Positions 1-38,139 of a stretch of DNA of 38,139 nucleotides are shown in pieces. The stretch is from a virus. The notes under the pieces were generated by a model that was not told the origin of the DNA, did no database searches, and saw nothing but the letters and a program-made list of their open reading frames with translations. Positions within the stretch are counted from its first letter, which is position 1; each line of letters opens with the position of its first letter. Both the position numbers and the translations under genes were made by a program. Location of the stretch: IMG/VR virus record IMGVR_UViG_3300042555_002161, positions 1 to 38,139 of that record; one strand, written 5' to 3'.

Positions 1-195
1 CGCTTGAGTAGCTGCTGGCTGAAGCCGTGGCCACCTTTGATCACAAAGATGTTTCGGTGCTTGCGAATCCGGCAGAAGTTGTACACCTCTTGCGTCAGGT
101 AGCCCGAATCGATCGCAGTGGCAGCGACTTTCATGCTGATGCCAAACGCGTTGGTGACCGGCTGGGCAAGGTATTCGTCTAGCTTTTCCCAAACC
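1..195. repeat. terminal overlap, copy 1 (circular closure)
   Basis: These 195 bases recur at 37945-38139 with four differences (positions 33, 54, 63, 69). All four fall in third codon positions of the terminase frame and are synonymous (Gly, Arg, Arg, Arg). Joining the copies gives an uninterrupted 646-residue TerL. This is best read as the assembly overlap of a circular or permuted genome, with the two ends drawn from slightly different alleles of the phage. It is unlikely to be a functional terminal repeat, since it lies inside a gene. Confidence 0.9.
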
Positions 196-1430
196 TCACT
201 GCGTGTTGGGTCGCCCGGTATGTAGTGCCAGTCGATGGTCCAACGGTTGCCGCCTTCACCAAAGCCGCGCAGCTGGACCTCGATGCGATCCTTTTGCACG
301 TCGACACCGGCGCAGATAAACAGGCAACCAACAGGAACCGTGCGCAGTGCATACGGCTCGGCGCGCTCTTTGATTTCCTGCCAGTCGAGCTTTTCGTTTT
401 CATCTTCGAAGCATTCACCAAGCACGGAGCCGTAGAACACCTTGAGCCGGGCCGGGTCGGACTTGACGCGGAGATAATCAGCCGCGTGCTGCGCCCAGGT
501 ATCACCCAACCCCAGCGGCGTGTAGAGCGCGTTGATGTGGAAGCCTGCGATCTCACGATCGGGGAACTTTGGCACCCACACACCACCAGCGAGCATGGCG
601 GTTTTGTGGTGCTCATCAATCAACACGCTGCATTCACCGCAGCGGTATTTCGCCTTCTCTGGCTCGCCTTCGGGCCATGTGACGTTTTCCCAAATCAGCG
701 GCTGCCGGGCTTCACAGTGCGGGCAGGCGACGTGGTATGAACGCTGGTCAGACTCAAGCCAATCTTTCTCAATGCGGCTCAGCGATTTGATGGTCGGTGA
801 GCTGATCTTAAAAATCTTGCGGCGCGGAAACGTGGTGGTGCGTTTCTTCGCCAGGTCAACCGGGTCGCCTTCTTCATCGACCTCGGCTGGGTATTTGTCG
901 ATCTCATCAAGCAGCAGGTACTTGATCGGCATCGAGGCCAATGAAGCGGCGCTGTTGGCGCCACCGACGATCAGCATGCCGTCGCCGGCAAACTCTTTCA
1001 TGGTCATCGTGTTGCCACCATCACGCGATGCACTCGAGGCAATGAGCTTCGAAAGCTGCGGGCTGGCTTCGATCATCGATGCCAGGCGTTGCTTTGACCA
1101 CCGCGTGCCGACTTCTACCGTCGGCAACACCGCCAACATCGGGCCGGGCGCGTGATCCATTGCGTAGCCCAGCCAATTCAGCCCGACTTCAGTGCCCCCC
1201 ACTTGCGTGGATTTCTTGAACACCACCTCGCGGCACGGATGCTGCGATGACAGGCAATCCATAATTTCGCGCAGAAACGGCACCCGCGACGTCCGCCACG
1301 GCCCTGGCTCACTCGCACCCTTCGCCGTGAGCTTGCGGTGCTTGTCAGCCCATTGCGAGACGGTGAGCGGCGGGTTGGGTCGAATGGCAGCGGCAAATAT
1401 CTTGCCTACAAACGAGCCGCCGTCAGGCAT
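1..1430 (-). CDS. terL: terminase large subunit, N-terminal part (continues at 38139)
   Basis: Packaging motor ATPase and nuclease of the lambda gpA family. Starting at the ATG at 1430 the frame is open to the window edge. The translation has a Walker-A-like stretch KSTQVGGTE, a Walker B LLLDEID, a zinc-ribbon-like segment (ACPHCE...YRCGEC) and the first nuclease aspartate in GVDVQKDRIEVQL. The frame continues through the terminal overlap into 37434-37944, giving 646 residues, close to lambda gpA (641). The start ATG overlaps the methyltransferase stop by one base (TAATG), so translation is probably coupled. It cuts and pumps concatemeric DNA into proheads at the portal. Partial only because the contig ends here. 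Confidence 0.93.
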   Translation of the reverse strand, partial: MPDGGSFVGKIFAAAIRPNPPLTVSQWADKHRKLTAKGASEPGPWRTSRVPFLREIMDCLSSQHPCREVVFKKSTQVGGTEVGLNWLGYAMDHAPGPMLAVLPTVEVGTRWSKQRLASMIEASPQLSKLIASSASRDGGNTMTMKEFAGDGMLIVGGANSAASLASMPIKYLLLDEIDKYPAEVDEEGDPVDLAKKRTTTFPRRKIFKISSPTIKSLSRIEKDWLESDQRSYHVACPHCEARQPLIWENVTWPEGEPEKAKYRCGECSVLIDEHHKTAMLAGGVWVPKFPDREIAGFHINALYTPLGLGDTWAQHAADYLRVKSDPARLKVFYGSVLGECFEDENEKLDWQEIKERAEPYALRTVPVGCLFICAGVDVQKDRIEVQLRGFGEGGNRWTIDWHYIPGDPTRSEVWEKLDEYLAQPVTNAFGISMKVAATAIDSGYLTQEVYNFCRIRKHRNIFVIKGGHGFSQQLLK

Positions 1431-2113
1431 TAGGTCACCACCTCAAATAGCTTTTGCTGCCGTTGGGCGTTTTCGATTCGCTCACAAGCAATGTCGAAAT
1501 TACGCTCCATCAACTCGATTCCCGTGTATTTCAGTCCGCGCTTAACCGCAGCAATTCCTACGGGAGCAGACCCCATGCAAGCGTCTATAACTGTTTTAGG
1601 GTCGCTGGCAAGGCTCACGCACCAATCCATTAACGCTATCGGCTTCTGAGTCGGATGCACCCGTGGCGCGGCGCTCTCAGAATCCCGCAACATCCCATTC
1701 CACATATGCCGAAACATACGCACAGAAGTTTTTAGGTTTGTCCACGCCAGCTCACAATCGGCAAAACAGTTTTTACCGTTTACCTTGTCCCATACAAGCC
1801 AGCCGCGAGAAGGCGCAACCGTAAAATAATTGCCGCCCCAAATAATTGTTTCTTTTGCCGCGCCAATGCAAAGCGCGATTCGATCTGCGGACATAGGTTC
1901 TTTATCCCAATCAAAATCGCCATAGTCTGTCGTTTTTGCCAACTTGCGTCTTGACGCTACTCGATGCGCGTTCTCGCCAACACCATAAGGGGGGTCGTGA
2001 ATGCCCAGATCGTGCTTTGCGAGAGTCGGCAAAATTTCACGACAATCGCCAAGGTACAGCGTGGCATTGCCTATTACTTCCATCCTTTTGTAAGCCATCA
2101 CGCCGTCAGGCAT
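1430..2113 (-). CDS. DNA methyltransferase inserted between terS and terL
   Basis: S-adenosylmethionine-dependent DNA methyltransferase. Motif IV is DPPYG at about residues 40-44. Near the C-terminus come HPTQKP and a motif-I-like DACMGSAPVG, followed by GLKYTGIEL. The order IV then I is that of beta-class amino-methyltransferases, so N6-adenine or N4-cytosine is the likely product. Motif I is unusual: the usual GSGT/GSGS is GSAP. Three starts are possible: 2113 (overlapping terS by 8 bases), 2098 or 2086, where the conserved IGNATLYLGDC begins. It probably protects phage DNA from host restriction or marks it. Lambda-type phages normally have terS directly next to terL; flanking 13-base repeats suggest insertion (see findings). 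Confidence 0.85.
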   Translation of the reverse strand: MPDGVMAYKRMEVIGNATLYLGDCREILPTLAKHDLGIHDPPYGVGENAHRVASRRKLAKTTDYGDFDWDKEPMSADRIALCIGAAKETIIWGGNYFTVAPSRGWLVWDKVNGKNCFADCELAWTNLKTSVRMFRHMWNGMLRDSESAAPRVHPTQKPIALMDWCVSLASDPKTVIDACMGSAPVGIAAVKRGLKYTGIELMERNFDIACERIENAQRQQKLFEVVT

Positions 2114-2735
2114 CGCTCACCAGCTCGCCGGCATCATCCAGCGTGACCGCAGCGTTTGCAAAATCCGTCAAGACCTTGCGCACTTCCTCCTCCAAAATTA
2201 ATTCACGCTTTGCAGCATCCGGCTCGCCGTTGATCAGTGGCATCACACGGGCGCTGATACCACCGAGCCCCTTGGAGACCACGGCCGCCAGCGATTCAAT
2301 ATCGCGCTTCACCTTCTCGCGGCGAATCAGCAAGCTCTCTTGCTCTTCGCGTTTAATCTTTGCCAGCTTGGCCAGCTCAGATTCTTTGTCAGCACGGGCG
2401 CGGTTGAATTCCGCATAGGTTGAATCAGCGTTGCCACCCGCTCCTCCCGGTAGTTCAGAGCCACCAGGAGGAGTCTGCCTTGCTTCAGGTGGAGGTGCTT
2501 TTTCAGATGCAAACAGCGCGACTTCGATCACTTTATTTTCGCGCTCCCGCGCATGGCGAATGACCACGCCCTGCTTTGCTGGATCTGCTGACTGATCGAT
2601 CAACTCGATCGACTTCTCAAAGTCAACTTTGCCGTCCGCATCGAACGCCATACGACCGGCCTTCTCCCACCGGCTCACTGTCGACTTGTGTACTCCGCGA
2701 TGCGCCGCGAACTCGGCGCGCGTGCCAGTTGGCAT
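2106..2735 (-). CDS. terS: terminase small subunit
   Basis: DNA-recognition subunit of the packaging enzyme, Nu1-like. The first 30 residues form a helix-turn-helix (RAEFAAHRGVHKSTVSRWEK). A proline/glycine-rich linker follows (around residues 85-105), then a charged helical region (residues 110-150) suited to oligomerisation, and an acidic C-terminus. It stands directly upstream of the methyltransferase and terL and ends in an 8-base overlap with the former. The roughly 320 bases upstream hold clustered GTTGC repeats that could be its binding sites. 209 residues is slightly longer than lambda Nu1 (181). Confidence 0.85.
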   Translation of the reverse strand: MPTGTRAEFAAHRGVHKSTVSRWEKAGRMAFDADGKVDFEKSIELIDQSADPAKQGVVIRHARERENKVIEVALFASEKAPPPEARQTPPGGSELPGGAGGNADSTYAEFNRARADKESELAKLAKIKREEQESLLIRREKVKRDIESLAAVVSKGLGGISARVMPLINGEPDAAKRELILEEEVRKVLTDFANAAVTLDDAGELVSDA

Positions 2736-2747
2736 GGTGCCCCCGTT

Positions 2748-2798
2748 GTTGCGTTGCGCGTTGCATGGTGCTGTGGGTGAAGTTGCGTAAGGTGCAAC
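2748..2798. repeat. GTTGC repeat cluster upstream of terS (candidate cos/TerS binding region)
   Basis: GTTGCG occurs at 2748-2753, 2753-2758 and 2782-2787, GTTGCA at 2760-2765, and an inverted GCAAC at 2794-2798. The last two form GTTGC-(7)-GCAAC. The cluster lies in the untranslated stretch before terS, where lambdoid phages carry cosB and cosN. I cannot identify a cleavage site. It could instead be a regulatory operator. Confidence 0.3.
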
Positions 2799-2861
2799 TA
2801 CTTGAAACTAGCTAAACAACGGGGCTCGAATTACCGCACTGGGAAAGCTCAGGGAGGACCC

Positions 2862-3035
2862 GTGAAATTTATTGGCTGTCAGCGGTGCGGCTGACGCAAC
2901 TACCACAACATGGCAGAAACTATAGACCGAATGGCGTATGAGCGGCGTGGCATTTTGGATAACCCTAGCACTGGCGCGGCGTTTCAGGTGGTCACTTTGG
3001 AAACGCATAACATTGGCGGGCATCTTCAGGCATAA
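2862..3035 (+). pseudogene. small antisense reading frame interrupted by TGA
   Basis: The 320-base stretch between the Q-like gene and terS has no minus-strand gene I trust. On the plus strand a GTG at 2862 follows a strong Shine-Dalgarno GGGAGG. The frame reads ten residues ending CQRCG, meets a TGA at 2892-2894, then stays open in the same frame (RNYHNMAETIDRMAYERRG...) to a TAA at 3033-3035. A second start, ATG 2910, would give 41 residues. A weak hairpin (CCCGT/ACGGG) follows at about 3049-3064. It may be a gene broken by one nonsense codon, or a chance frame. No function recognised. Confidence 0.3.
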
Positions 3036-3056
3036 GTGCTTGGAACTGCCCGTCAT

Positions 3057-3440
3057 TTAACGGGTTTGATCTTTGCGTATTGCAATAAAATTCTCATGCG
3101 CACGGCGCAGGATCGTTGGCACACGATGCCGGTCGCAATGTGGATCAATGCGACGCGCGATGTCGATGTTGCTCACTGATTGCAGGTGGTAGTGCAACAG
3201 CGCAACACATTGCTCACGCAGCTGCTCACGCATGGCGCGAATGGTGCGATTGGTGACCTCGGCCTCGGCTGCGATGGTTGGTATCGCAATGCCACTATCA
3301 GCCCTCATCTCACGCTTGAGCGCGGCTTCGTCAGGGTGCATCTCGACCGAAACTGGTGAGCCGGTCGCACCACGACGCCAGCGATCCCACTCACACACCT
3401 TCACGCGCACTTCGTCCTCAAATGGGTACGGCTCAGCCAT
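3057..3440 (-). CDS. probable late antiterminator, Q-like
   Basis: A 127-residue protein in the slot of lambda Q: last early gene, directly before the packaging and structural genes. The N-terminal VRVKVCEWDRWRRG resembles the WG.W core of phage antitermination Q proteins. Its C-terminal half (CVALLHYHLQSVSNIDIARRI... then a second helix) looks like a sigma-region-4-type helix-turn-helix, as in that family. By family knowledge it would modify RNA polymerase at the late promoter so that it reads through terminators, several of which are visible downstream. The start ATG at 3440 overlaps the stop region of the upstream initiator-like gene. The assignment rests on position and weak motif resemblance. 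Confidence 0.5.
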   Translation of the reverse strand: MAEPYPFEDEVRVKVCEWDRWRRGATGSPVSVEMHPDEAALKREMRADSGIAIPTIAAEAEVTNRTIRAMREQLREQCVALLHYHLQSVSNIDIARRIDPHCDRHRVPTILRRAHENFIAIRKDQTR

Positions 3441-4261
3441 CAGTCATCCTCACGTTCGTTGAAGTGCGTCTGGCACAGCCAAGTGCCACCGCGTTTGTAC
3501 TTTGCCAACGCACCGCACACCGCGCATGAGTCAGGCTTGGTGTTGACCATCGCCACTGCCTCACGCCACTCGGCATTGGTGAGGTATGAGCGTGGCCCTA
3601 CGAGGTATTGCCCACCGTCACGCAAGGCAGCGTCACTCTTGGCGATCACGTTGGCCACATGCGCCAAGACCAGATCAATCTCACGGTCGAGCTTCATGCG
3701 CTCCCACCTTCGTCTGCATTCGGCCTTGTACTTTTTGTGCATCGATTGTGGCCATGCTTGCCAGAAGCGATCGAATGGCAAAACACCAGCGTCGATAGAC
3801 GCGCTAGGGTTTATGGGAAGACTATGGGAAAACCCTTTATATAGGTGACCCTGATTTAGGTGCACGTCCTGCACCCAATTAGGTGCACCACGTTCACCGC
3901 CTTCTGCCAAATTAGGTGCACCACGTTCACCGCCTTCTGCCAAATTAGGTGCACCACGTTCACCGCCTTTCACGTCTTCCGGCCATGCAAGCGTGTACTC
4001 GTTACGTGACCACTTTTGCCCGCCAAATCCATGCCGGCGAATAGTCAGCCAACCGTTTTCCTTTCCCAATTTCACCTGCGTCAATACAGCACGCTTGGAC
4101 AAACCCGTTTCCGCAACCAACTGCTCGATGGTCGGAAAACACGGCTCACCCGCATCGTTGACATGACAAGAGAGCGTCAACAAAACGTGGCGCGTGGTAC
4201 TCGGCAGATCACTTTTCAGTAACCGCTGCCGCCATGACCAAGCTCGTCGTTCGTTGCTCAC
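3440..4261 (-). CDS. replication initiator-like protein with internal repeats
   Basis: 273 residues. The N-terminal 90 residues form a winged helix of the phage replication (HTH_36/lambda O-like) type: FPTIEQLVAETGLSKRAVL followed by a wing. A low-complexity linker carries an 11-residue repeat (GGERGAPNLAE, about 2.7 copies), then a conserved helical region (FDRFWQAWP...), and a C-terminal zinc-binding motif CAVC...LC..H. The start is GTG at 4261, overlapping the dnaB stop (GTGA). In lambda the O protein binds iterons inside its own gene; the DNA coding for the linker here is likewise iteron-like. It probably recruits the phage DnaB to the origin. Confidence 0.68.
   Translation of the reverse strand: MSNERRAWSWRQRLLKSDLPSTTRHVLLTLSCHVNDAGEPCFPTIEQLVAETGLSKRAVLTQVKLGKENGWLTIRRHGFGGQKWSRNEYTLAWPEDVKGGERGAPNLAEGGERGAPNLAEGGERGAPNWVQDVHLNQGHLYKGFSHSLPINPSASIDAGVLPFDRFWQAWPQSMHKKYKAECRRRWERMKLDREIDLVLAHVANVIAKSDAALRDGGQYLVGPRSYLTNAEWREAVAMVNTKPDSCAVCGALAKYKRGGTWLCQTHFNEREDD
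3853..3969. repeat. iteron-like 33-bp tandem repeat, candidate replication origin
   Basis: Exact 33-bp units run 3878-3910 and 3911-3943, with a partial third unit 3944-3969; a diverged copy lies at 3853-3876. Each exact unit carries the palindrome GGTGCACC (3882, 3915, 3948), and the diverged copy has GGTGCAC at 3859. An AT-richer stretch follows at about 3805-3845 on the downstream side of the gene. The arrangement, iterons within the initiator gene flanked by an AT-rich segment, matches lambda ori. Confidence 0.6.
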
Positions 4262-5679
4262 ACTCCACCTCTTTCCGCATACTGCTTTTGGGCGCGGAAT
4301 TGCCGCCCTGGCGCTTCACCTTCGTTGTAAAACTTCGTCAGTCTCGGCTCGTAATCCATGTGCACCGTGCCGATGCCGCCGTTGCGTTGCTTACCCACAA
4401 TCACCTTGGCGTCGTACATATCCTCTTCTTTTTGCGTGGCCACATACTCACGATGCAGCAGCAAAATGGTGTCGGCATCACTCTCGATTGAGCCGGAATC
4501 GCGCAGCTCGGAAATCACCGGCATTTTCTTTTCTTTGGCCGCGTCACGGTTTAACTGTGACAGCGCGATCACCGGGCAATTCAGCTCTTTGGCCAATCGT
4601 TTTAGGCCGGAGGTGACCGCGCCAATTTCCACGGCCCGATTGTCATAGCGCCCTTCCGAGTGAGCGAGCTGCACATAGTCGACAATCAGCAGCCCAAAGC
4701 CACCCACGCGCTTGGATTGCACCCGCGCACGCGCCACCAGCTCTTGGATGGTCAGCCCACCGGTTTGATCGATGTGGAAGTTGGCACTGTTAAGCTGCGT
4801 CATTGCCGCGTTGATGCGATCCCAATGCTTCCCATCAAGCCGATGCTCGCGGAATCTGCCGCTCGGAATACCGCTCTCACCTGAGAGAATCCGCACCGCC
4901 AGCTCGATGTCTGTCATCTCCATTGAGAACATGCCCACCGCCACCTTCGATTGCAGCGCCACGTTCGTTGCCACATTCACCGCGAAGGAAGTCTTGCCGA
5001 CCGCAGGCCGCGCACCGACCACGATCAACTGGCCAGGCTGCATCGGGTTCATCAGCCGATCAAGGTCTTTGTAACCCGTGCGGATGCCCGTAGGAGCCTC
5101 TGCATCGTCAAGGTGGGACATCAGCTCAACCAGCGCATCAGAAAGGCTGCGAAACGTGCCCTCGCCGCGTTTAGAGCGGTTGTCAACATCCGCCAACAAA
5201 CTCTGCGCTTGGTCCAGCAGCTGCCGCGCATTCTTGCCGTTTGGATCGTAGGCAATATCGGCCATTTTCTCGCCAGCGCGGATGATGGCGCGCATCACCG
5301 CACGCTCATGCACCACTTCCGCGTACACGCGCGCATTGCTTGAACTCACCGACGTCTGCGACAAATCCAAAATGTACTCAAAGCCGCCCTGCACACGCTT
5401 CAACTGGTCTCGGTCTTTCAGCCACTGGCTGACGGTAATCGCATCGGCCAATTTGTTTTCAGAGATCAACGCATGCGCCGCTTTGAAAATCAGCTGGTGC
5501 TCGCCGGTGTAGAAGTCAGCCTCAGCCACCACGCCCACCACAAAATCAAAGCAGCCGTTATCGTAGAGAAGCAAGCCCAGCACTGCGGCTTCCGCTTCCA
5601 GCGAATAGGGCGGCATCTTCAGCGCGGACATTGGTGCGCTTTCTGCCAGCATGTTGCGATCATCCACGCGATCATTCAC
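4258..5679 (-). CDS. dnaB: replicative DNA helicase DnaB
   Basis: Hexameric 5'-3' replicative helicase. The N-terminal primase-interaction domain (PPYSLEAEAAVLGLLL) is followed by a RecA-like domain with Walker A GARPAVGKTS at about 222-231, Walker B LLIVDYVQL at about 330-338, and the conserved ALSQLNRDA and RDSGSIESDAD motifs. The start is a GTG at 5679 with GGGGTG six to seven bases upstream; GTG 5688 is also in frame. Length (473) is normal for DnaB. A phage-encoded helicase removes the need for a lambda P-type loader, and none is visible. The stop overlaps the start of the initiator-like gene. Confidence 0.97.
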   Translation of the reverse strand: MNDRVDDRNMLAESAPMSALKMPPYSLEAEAAVLGLLLYDNGCFDFVVGVVAEADFYTGEHQLIFKAAHALISENKLADAITVSQWLKDRDQLKRVQGGFEYILDLSQTSVSSSNARVYAEVVHERAVMRAIIRAGEKMADIAYDPNGKNARQLLDQAQSLLADVDNRSKRGEGTFRSLSDALVELMSHLDDAEAPTGIRTGYKDLDRLMNPMQPGQLIVVGARPAVGKTSFAVNVATNVALQSKVAVGMFSMEMTDIELAVRILSGESGIPSGRFREHRLDGKHWDRINAAMTQLNSANFHIDQTGGLTIQELVARARVQSKRVGGFGLLIVDYVQLAHSEGRYDNRAVEIGAVTSGLKRLAKELNCPVIALSQLNRDAAKEKKMPVISELRDSGSIESDADTILLLHREYVATQKEEDMYDAKVIVGKQRNGGIGTVHMDYEPRLTKFYNEGEAPGRQFRAQKQYAERGGV

Positions 5680-5749
5680 AGGCAACACCCCAAAAATCGC
5701 GCGGAAGTTTCACCGCCGACGCATGCGCGCCGTTCATTGTTTTACGCAT
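5672..5749 (-). CDS. tiny open frame bridging to dnaB (25 aa)
   Basis: An ATG at 5749 lies directly after the stop of the preceding gene, and the 25-residue frame (MRKTMNGAH..., ending GVACE) stops at 5672, just past the dnaB GTG. The tight join on both sides suggests a translational bridge feeding ribosomes to the dnaB start, whether or not the peptide matters. No homology recognised. Confidence 0.35.
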   Translation of the reverse strand: MRKTMNGAHASAVKLPRDFWGVACE

Positions 5750-37272: not shown

Positions 37273-37437
37273 GTTTTTTTGCCTCCTATGCGGGCGATCT
37301 GCACGGTGGTGGTTTGCGCACCAAGCCGCGCGGCGCTGGTGCTCCTATTTGCTCCGCCAAGCCGGGCTATCTCTGCGCTGAATCGTGTCGATTTTTCGCG
37401 CAGCGGCACTGGCATCTGCGATTGGCACATAGCTCAT
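37269..37437 (-). pseudogene. small gene after terL, apparently frameshifted
   Basis: ATG 37437 overlaps the terL stop (ATGA) and has AAGGATGG upstream, but its frame stops after 30 residues (MSYVPIADASAAARKIDTIQ...) at 37345. A second frame, open from ATG 37430 to 37269 (53 residues, ending AEIARLGGANRSTSAARLGA... VQIARIGGKKT), overlaps the next start by ATGA. The two halves look like one protein split by a single base; an AAAAA run lies at the likely point (37393-37397). It may be an assembly or sequence error, a mutation, or programmed slippage. Location fits a small joining protein. Confidence 0.45.
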
Positions 37438-38139
37438 TTATTTTTCCATCCTTGCACAAAGCCGCCTTTGCGTTTGATGATGCGCGGCTTGTTGGTGGGT
37501 GTTTCATGTGGAACGACTGCCAGCGCCTCTAGGCCGGTTTTCTCGGGTAGCGGCGCGGCAAATAGGTCCTGTTGCTGTCTGCCGGCGGGCTCAAATACGT
37601 CGCGCAGTTTTTTCCAATCCGACTCACGCATGGCCTGCACACGCACCACGGGGTGATGCGCAATGGCCTCGGCATAGTTGGCGGTGTCGAGTGCCTCGTT
37701 GTGCCGGTCTTTCAGCTTCACATAGGTGCGCTTGCGCGGATCGAACACCTCAGAGGTGTACTGCATGAAGTAGTCATCCGGCAGCTCGTGGCTAAAGTGC
37801 TCTAGGCGATGCGCGGCGGGGTGTTTGCCGTCGCTGTGCAGCCGTGCATAGAGCATTTGTTTGCCGGTGTTGACCGAGACTTCGTAAACCTCTGCGCCGC
37901 CCTTCACCACGCCGCCGTTACGCTTGAAATCCTTTTTCGATGGCCGCTTGAGTAGCTGCTGGCTGAAGCCGTGGCCGCCTTTGATCACAAAGATGTTGCG
38001 GTGCTTACGAATGCGGCAGAAGTTGTACACCTCTTGCGTCAGGTAGCCCGAATCGATCGCAGTGGCAGCGACTTTCATGCTGATGCCAAACGCGTTGGTG
38101 ACCGGCTGGGCAAGGTATTCGTCTAGCTTTTCCCAAACC
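37434..38139 (-). CDS. terL: terminase large subunit, C-terminal part (continues from position 1)
   Basis: Carries the second half of the nuclease domain (SMKVAATAIDSGYLTQEVYN, with the conserved aspartate) and the gpA-type C-terminus (KKDFKRNGG..., HFSHELPDDYFMQYTSEVFD, LDTANYAEAIAHHPVVRVQA). The first 195 bases repeat window positions 1-195. Ends with a lysine-rich tail (KRKGGFVQGWKNK) at 37434. Confidence 0.93.
   Translation of the reverse strand, partial: VWEKLDEYLAQPVTNAFGISMKVAATAIDSGYLTQEVYNFCRIRKHRNIFVIKGGHGFSQQLLKRPSKKDFKRNGGVVKGGAEVYEVSVNTGKQMLYARLHSDGKHPAAHRLEHFSHELPDDYFMQYTSEVFDPRKRTYVKLKDRHNEALDTANYAEAIAHHPVVRVQAMRESDWKKLRDVFEPAGRQQQDLFAAPLPEKTGLEALAVVPHETPTNKPRIIKRKGGFVQGWKNK
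37945..38139. repeat. terminal overlap, copy 2 (circular closure)
   Basis: Matches 1-195 at 191 of 195 positions; see the entry at 1-195. Confidence 0.9.

Follow-up and report, generated by a model that had tools for sequence, protein, structure and literature searches.

In the DNA analysed here, the genes of the two terminase subunits, terS and terL, are separated by a gene for a DNA methyltransferase. How did this gene come to lie between them, and what may it do there? The window is the whole stretch that was analysed, one virus record of 38,139 bases taken whole (IMG/VR record IMGVR_UViG_3300042555_002161). Its gene content includes a tyrosine integrase, a helix-turn-helix repressor-like gene, a DnaB helicase, a lambda-type portal and a prohead-protease/capsid fusion. 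It is a tailed phage, and this gene content makes it probably temperate. The ends of the window are nearly identical (1-195 and 37945-38139, an overlap of 195 bp with 4 mismatches), and both lie inside terL. Apparently the cut is artificial, made in a genome that is circular or circularly permuted and shows strain variation. A replication-initiation-like gene and the DnaB helicase (3440-5688) share the strand of the terminase region and precede it, which makes the replication and packaging genes neighbours in one gene row.

The features of the junction are listed here in the direction of reading.

Positions 2106 to 2735, minus strand: terS, terminase small subunit, 209 aa (PHROG 57, E 7.5e-26; 97% identical to terS of the close relative L003).
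Positions 2101 to 2113, minus strand: first copy of the 13-bp repeat, ATGCCTGACGGCG, covering the end of terS and the first codons of the methyltransferase reading frame.
Positions 1430 to 2113, minus strand: methyltransferase reading frame, 227 aa, the inserted gene (Pfam N6_N4_Mtase, E 1.9e-9; PHROG 67, E 2.4e-37).
Positions 1431 to 2100, minus strand: the 670 bp of foreign DNA enclosed by the 13-mers, with a GC content of 50.4% (57.3% for the window), missing from L003.
Positions 2096 to 2098, minus strand: the codon at which the methyltransferase probably started originally (MAYKRMEVIG...), from DPPY spacing and homologue starts.
Positions 1556 to 1585, minus strand: motif I, which binds AdoMet; its sequence, DACMGSAPVG, is unusual for this family.
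Positions 1439 to 1444, minus strand: Shine-Dalgarno-like GAGGTG in the methyltransferase tail, 8 nt before the terL start, a putative ribosome-binding site.
Positions 1418 to 1430, minus strand: second copy of the 13-bp repeat, the first 13 bases of terL.
Positions 1 to 1430, minus strand: N-terminal part of terL, terminase large subunit of the GpA family (Pfam GpA_ATPase, E 1e-92; GpA_nuclease, E 2.9e-56).
Positions 37434 to 38138, minus strand: remainder of terL, the contig being cut inside this gene.

The three genes overlap. The stop codon of terS (TGA, 2108-2106) is inside the upstream copy of the repeat, and terS shares 8 bases, ATGCCTGA, with the methyltransferase frame, which in turn shares 1 base with terL (TAATG). 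The 13-mer reads CGCCGTCAGGCAT on the plus strand. Its two exact copies are 683 bp apart, and the whole window holds no further exact copy. The repeat and the overlaps of 8 bases and 1 base had been proposed in the first-pass annotation, and both are correct to the base. When 2000 pairs of 60-bp segments were drawn at random from this genome at distances of 400-1200 bp, the longest sequence shared by any pair was 12 bases, and the chance of a shared 13-mer falling exactly at gene boundaries is far lower still. The absence of any match beyond the repeat, also part of that annotation, holds on both sides: the downstream extension score is 0, and the upstream sequences, GAGCTGGTGAGCG and GAGGTGGTGACCTA, have a weak gapped resemblance that is within chance (P about 0.09). 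On this value, an imperfect repeat reaching further upstream than the 13-mer was rejected.

The state of the junction without the gene is observed directly in a close relative. When IMG/VR was scanned with each of the two genes, a single very close relative emerged, contig IMGVR_UViG_3300044716_000881 (L003). It has about 94% nucleotide identity to the window and protein identities of 99% for terL and 97% for terS. L003 does not have the methyltransferase. It has a single 13-mer, and its terS stop overlaps the terL start by 8 nt. The junction reads ...GAGCTGGTGAGCG-ATGCCTGACGGCG-GCTCGTTTGTAGGC..., the left side being the terS side of the window and the right side its terL side. Removal of 683 bp from the window gives exactly this natural arrangement. 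The restored overlap after such a removal, and a relative with one 13-mer at the join and no methyltransferase, had both been anticipated from the window, and L003 supplies both. A search for more close relatives by the terL start motif returned the L003 contig alone. At close range there is one contig with the gene and one without it, so L003 could itself be a revertant. L003 has another difference near the terminase pair. About 2.6 kb (2653-5289), including a 672-aa reading frame, are found between terL and the next shared gene, and about 120 bp (37374-37251) occupy this place in the window, a second insertion or deletion beside the pair.

The inserted gene is foreign in its composition. Its GC3 of 0.522 is the lowest of the 30 genes tallied. 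Its GC content of 50.4% falls among the lowest 2% of segments of equal size, whose mean is 57.3%. Relatives of the enzyme are encoded on 597 confirmed viral stretches, in varied gene contexts. The best homologues are 55-57% identical, and no donor was found. The first-pass annotation had named the gene a moron. Its position between adjacent genes, its composition and the occurrence of the family in many phages agree with this name, and the gene is like the morons of Hendrix and colleagues (criteria in PMC2920897) in position, GC difference and spread. However, morons carry their own promoter and/or terminator in that account. No sigma-70-like site was detected in positions 1000-3500, where this promoter type was searched for, and neither of the two terminator-like hits is in the insert. 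Instead, the gene is tied into the operon by its overlaps.

The N-terminus of the enzyme appears to bear a mark of the insertion. Counted from the first ATG, 39 residues precede the DPPY motif; the ATG at 2098 leaves 34. In homologues this stretch is commonly about 25-34 residues long, 34 being one of the two commonest values. The start MAYKRMEVIG is also close to those of homologues, for example YKRKEVIG in L028. None of 80 homologues begins with MPDG, and the possibility that the native start was already similar to the 13-mer was rejected for this reason. On this spacing and this absence, the best reading of the first five residues, MPDGV, is that they are the footprint of the duplication.

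The best reading of the sequence is that the gene encodes an orphan β-class N6-adenine/N4-cytosine DNA methyltransferase, recently captured. The match to Pfam N6_N4_Mtase (PF01555) scores 38.3 bits, with a gathering cut-off of 26.7. The motifs are in the β-class order, with DPPY (motif IV, residues 40-43) located before motif I (residues 177-186). The AlphaFold model (mean pLDDT 87.8) resembles CcrM, M1.HpyAVI and M.BceJIV, and its Foldseek match to CcrM has an E value of 4.5e-10. The enzyme shares with these β-class members of PHROG 67 and N6_N4_Mtase the fold, the motif order and intact DPPY, GGNYF and HPTQKP motifs.

Motif I differs from that of these enzymes. In most relatives this motif is DPFMGSGTTG or DTHLGSGS, and 76 of 80 have GSG. 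The enzyme has GSAPV instead of GSGTT or GSGS. Compared with the canonical DPFxGSGTT, the Asp, Gly and Ser residues are kept, and GTT is replaced by APV. This replacement takes several base changes, which makes a sequencing error unlikely. It also means that the enzyme may be weak or dead. The gene could then be a decaying passenger with no catalysis, kept only as it is recent and harmless to terS and terL, and the polymorphism for its presence is indeed recent. The Pro and Val residues are unique among the 81 sequences compared (found in none of the 80 relatives). On the other hand, the third position of motif I varies in other members as well (Cys, Ala, Gln or Phe), the frame of 227 residues is intact, and the fold is preserved together with the remaining conserved motifs. 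We consider decay a doubtful, though not negligible, reading, and the methyltransferase is rather likely, though by no means certain, to be active.

The direction of the change was examined in a wider survey of viral contigs and bacterial genomes, whose loci with terL were screened with a terS profile. Both genes of this terminase family are present in 163 loci, and a methyltransferase is located between them in two of these, the window and L008; many of the 163 are near-duplicates, and the count is not a rate. In four loci (L013, L105, L182 and L186) a Phd/VapC-like toxin-antitoxin pair is found instead, and in the remainder the two genes are adjacent or nearly so. The nearest outgroups (L096, L097 and L098, with 53-54% terL identity) do not have the gene, and their terS is directly beside terL or overlaps it; L099 is also without it. 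In L097 the two genes share the same 8 nt, GTGACTGA, and the next bases are CGGC, again as in the window phage. A terL tree, built from 39 rows after dereplication, places the methyltransferases of the window and L008 on separate branches with empty loci between them, and two separate changes are needed; the toxin-antitoxin cases need one. With the outgroups and most relatives lacking the gene and the two cases on separate branches, a gain in the window lineage is the simplest history, and the empty junction is almost certainly ancestral, as judged from these comparisons.

The alternative history is that the common ancestor of the window and L003 had the methyltransferase, and L003 lost it by deletion between the 13-bp repeats. 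A deletion between direct repeats 683 bp apart would give exactly the L003 arrangement, and the distant relative L008 has a methyltransferase at the same place. However, the outgroups and nearly all relatives are without the gene, the L008 gene is on its own branch, and the repeat would still demand an earlier insertion. Loss in L003 is therefore an unlikely account, and insertion into an empty junction is the reading used below.

The methyltransferase in L008 (2441-3154) is 39% identical to that of the window and has 4-base overlaps on both sides, without a direct repeat. It is apparently an independent and older entry; a shared origin of the two genes at the junction was rejected, as the tree demands two changes. 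The toxin-antitoxin pairs (L013:2365-3020, L105:3493-3894, L182:4493-4894 and L186:2824-3225) belong to a clade of Roseobacter-type prophages. In the relatives of this clade terS and terL overlap, and the pairs are a second kind of cargo at this junction. The Phd and VapC families were profiled in L013, and the other three loci were matched to it by position and a VapC-like start of the reading frame. No repeat comparable to that of the window was found at the L008 or toxin-antitoxin junctions. The nearest isolated phages (ZRG1, WO and the Rc phages) were rejected as an aid in dating the insertion, being too distant.

The position of the gene within the packaging operon raises another possibility for its function, that methylation at cos or pac times the cutting by terminase, like Dam in phage P1, a precedent cited in PMC4190342. 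Neighbouring methyltransferase and terL genes also recur in unrelated phages (L075 and L076). However, the near-identical phage L003 and nearly all relatives do without the gene, and for the same reason Murphy et al. thought a regulatory role unlikely in the lactococcal 936 phages (PMC4190342). In addition, most relatives of the enzyme sit in other gene neighbourhoods. A packaging role is improbable on these grounds. In L075 (1680-4664) and L076 (499-2497), a member of the same methyltransferase family immediately precedes a terL that belongs to another family (PHROG 2), and a reading frame in L075 (1680-2207) resembles, by eye alone, a small terminase subunit. The TJE1 methylase was rejected as a further terminase neighbour, as it is not beside a terminase gene in the annotated stretch examined.

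A transposon-like or homing element, with the perfect direct repeat on both sides of the insert as its target-site duplication, was rejected as very improbable, since the insert is one gene with no transposase, integrase, recombinase or endonuclease and no terminal inverted repeats.

The preferred explanation, which we hold with good though not full confidence, is that a foreign orphan methyltransferase was inserted into the terS/terL overlap, that this overlap was duplicated, and that the likely role is anti-restriction. The foreign gene would have entered the 8-nt overlap, and the 13-bp stretch that holds all of it is duplicated at both ends of the insert, so that terS keeps its stop, terL keeps its start, and both proteins are unaltered. 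The insertion, the duplication, the empty site, the foreign composition and the predicted fold are shown by the sequences and the model, and the gain, the transcription with the operon, the enzymatic activity and the anti-restriction role are inferred from them. The inserted frame would have adopted the former start codon of terL, gaining the N-terminal MPDGV, and a new sequence with a good ribosome-binding site would have come to lie upstream of terL. As terS and terL share those 8 bases, an insertion that spares both genes must duplicate them. Any route, for example template switching or the repair of a staggered break, leaves both genes whole only if at least 8 overlap bases are duplicated. 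This need for duplication follows from the sequence itself and calls for no special enzyme, and the 13-bp repeat may thus reflect survival and not mechanism.

The methyltransferase should be read with the late packaging operon. The putative ribosome-binding site in its tail, GAGGTG, is a better match than the terS tail upstream of terL in L003. The predicted RNA fold around the methyltransferase start is more stable than shuffled sequences (z −2.7), and that around the terL start is not. The overlaps suggest that terS, the methyltransferase and terL may be translationally coupled, which the first-pass annotation took as intact. The likeliest job of the enzyme would be to protect the DNA of its own phage against restriction in the next host by methylating it ahead of packaging. 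By analogy with the 936 phages, we favour this anti-restriction role somewhat.

In the lactococcal 936 phages, the terS/terL gap is a hotspot for insertions, among them orphan methyltransferases and HNH endonucleases (PMC4190342), and at least one reading frame is present there in 65.55% of ninety 936 genomes (PMC4759559). Homologues of these orphan methyltransferases protect phage DNA from restriction enzymes (PMC4190342, PMC4759559). The first-pass annotation had described terS and terL as the most conserved gene pair of the phage. The pair is conserved, but the gap between its genes is a documented hotspot for cargo in 936 phages (PMC4190342). As in 936-type phages (M.Phi145I, M.Phi93I and M.Phi93DAM; PMC4190342, PMC4759559), an optional orphan methyltransferase occupies this gap, and other members of the 936 group are without one, like nearly all relatives of the window. 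In contrast, the 936 phages have a Gram-positive host, carry HNH genes as well, and are unrelated to the window phage with its GpA-type terminase. The direct repeat that duplicates the overlap is present in the window, and the available portions of PMC4190342 and PMC4759559 do not describe one for 936 phages.

This kind of insertion is already known from these dairy phages. What is new is the precise before-and-after pair and the duplication that spares the overlap. The window and L003 are a clean pair for gene gain in a phage, with about 94% DNA identity, the gene present or absent, and breakpoints that can be read to the base. The pair shows that a gene can enter an overlapping pair of essential genes and leave both undamaged. 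It also adds one more group, unrelated to the others, to the phages that use the terS/terL gap for probably protective cargo. More speculatively, overlap duplication might be a general route by which cargo enters overlapping, coupled gene pairs with both neighbours unharmed. If so, the newcomer would adopt the old start region and supply a new one to the displaced gene, and recent cargo in phage operons at large would be recognisable by short direct repeats that span the overlap of a stop and a start.
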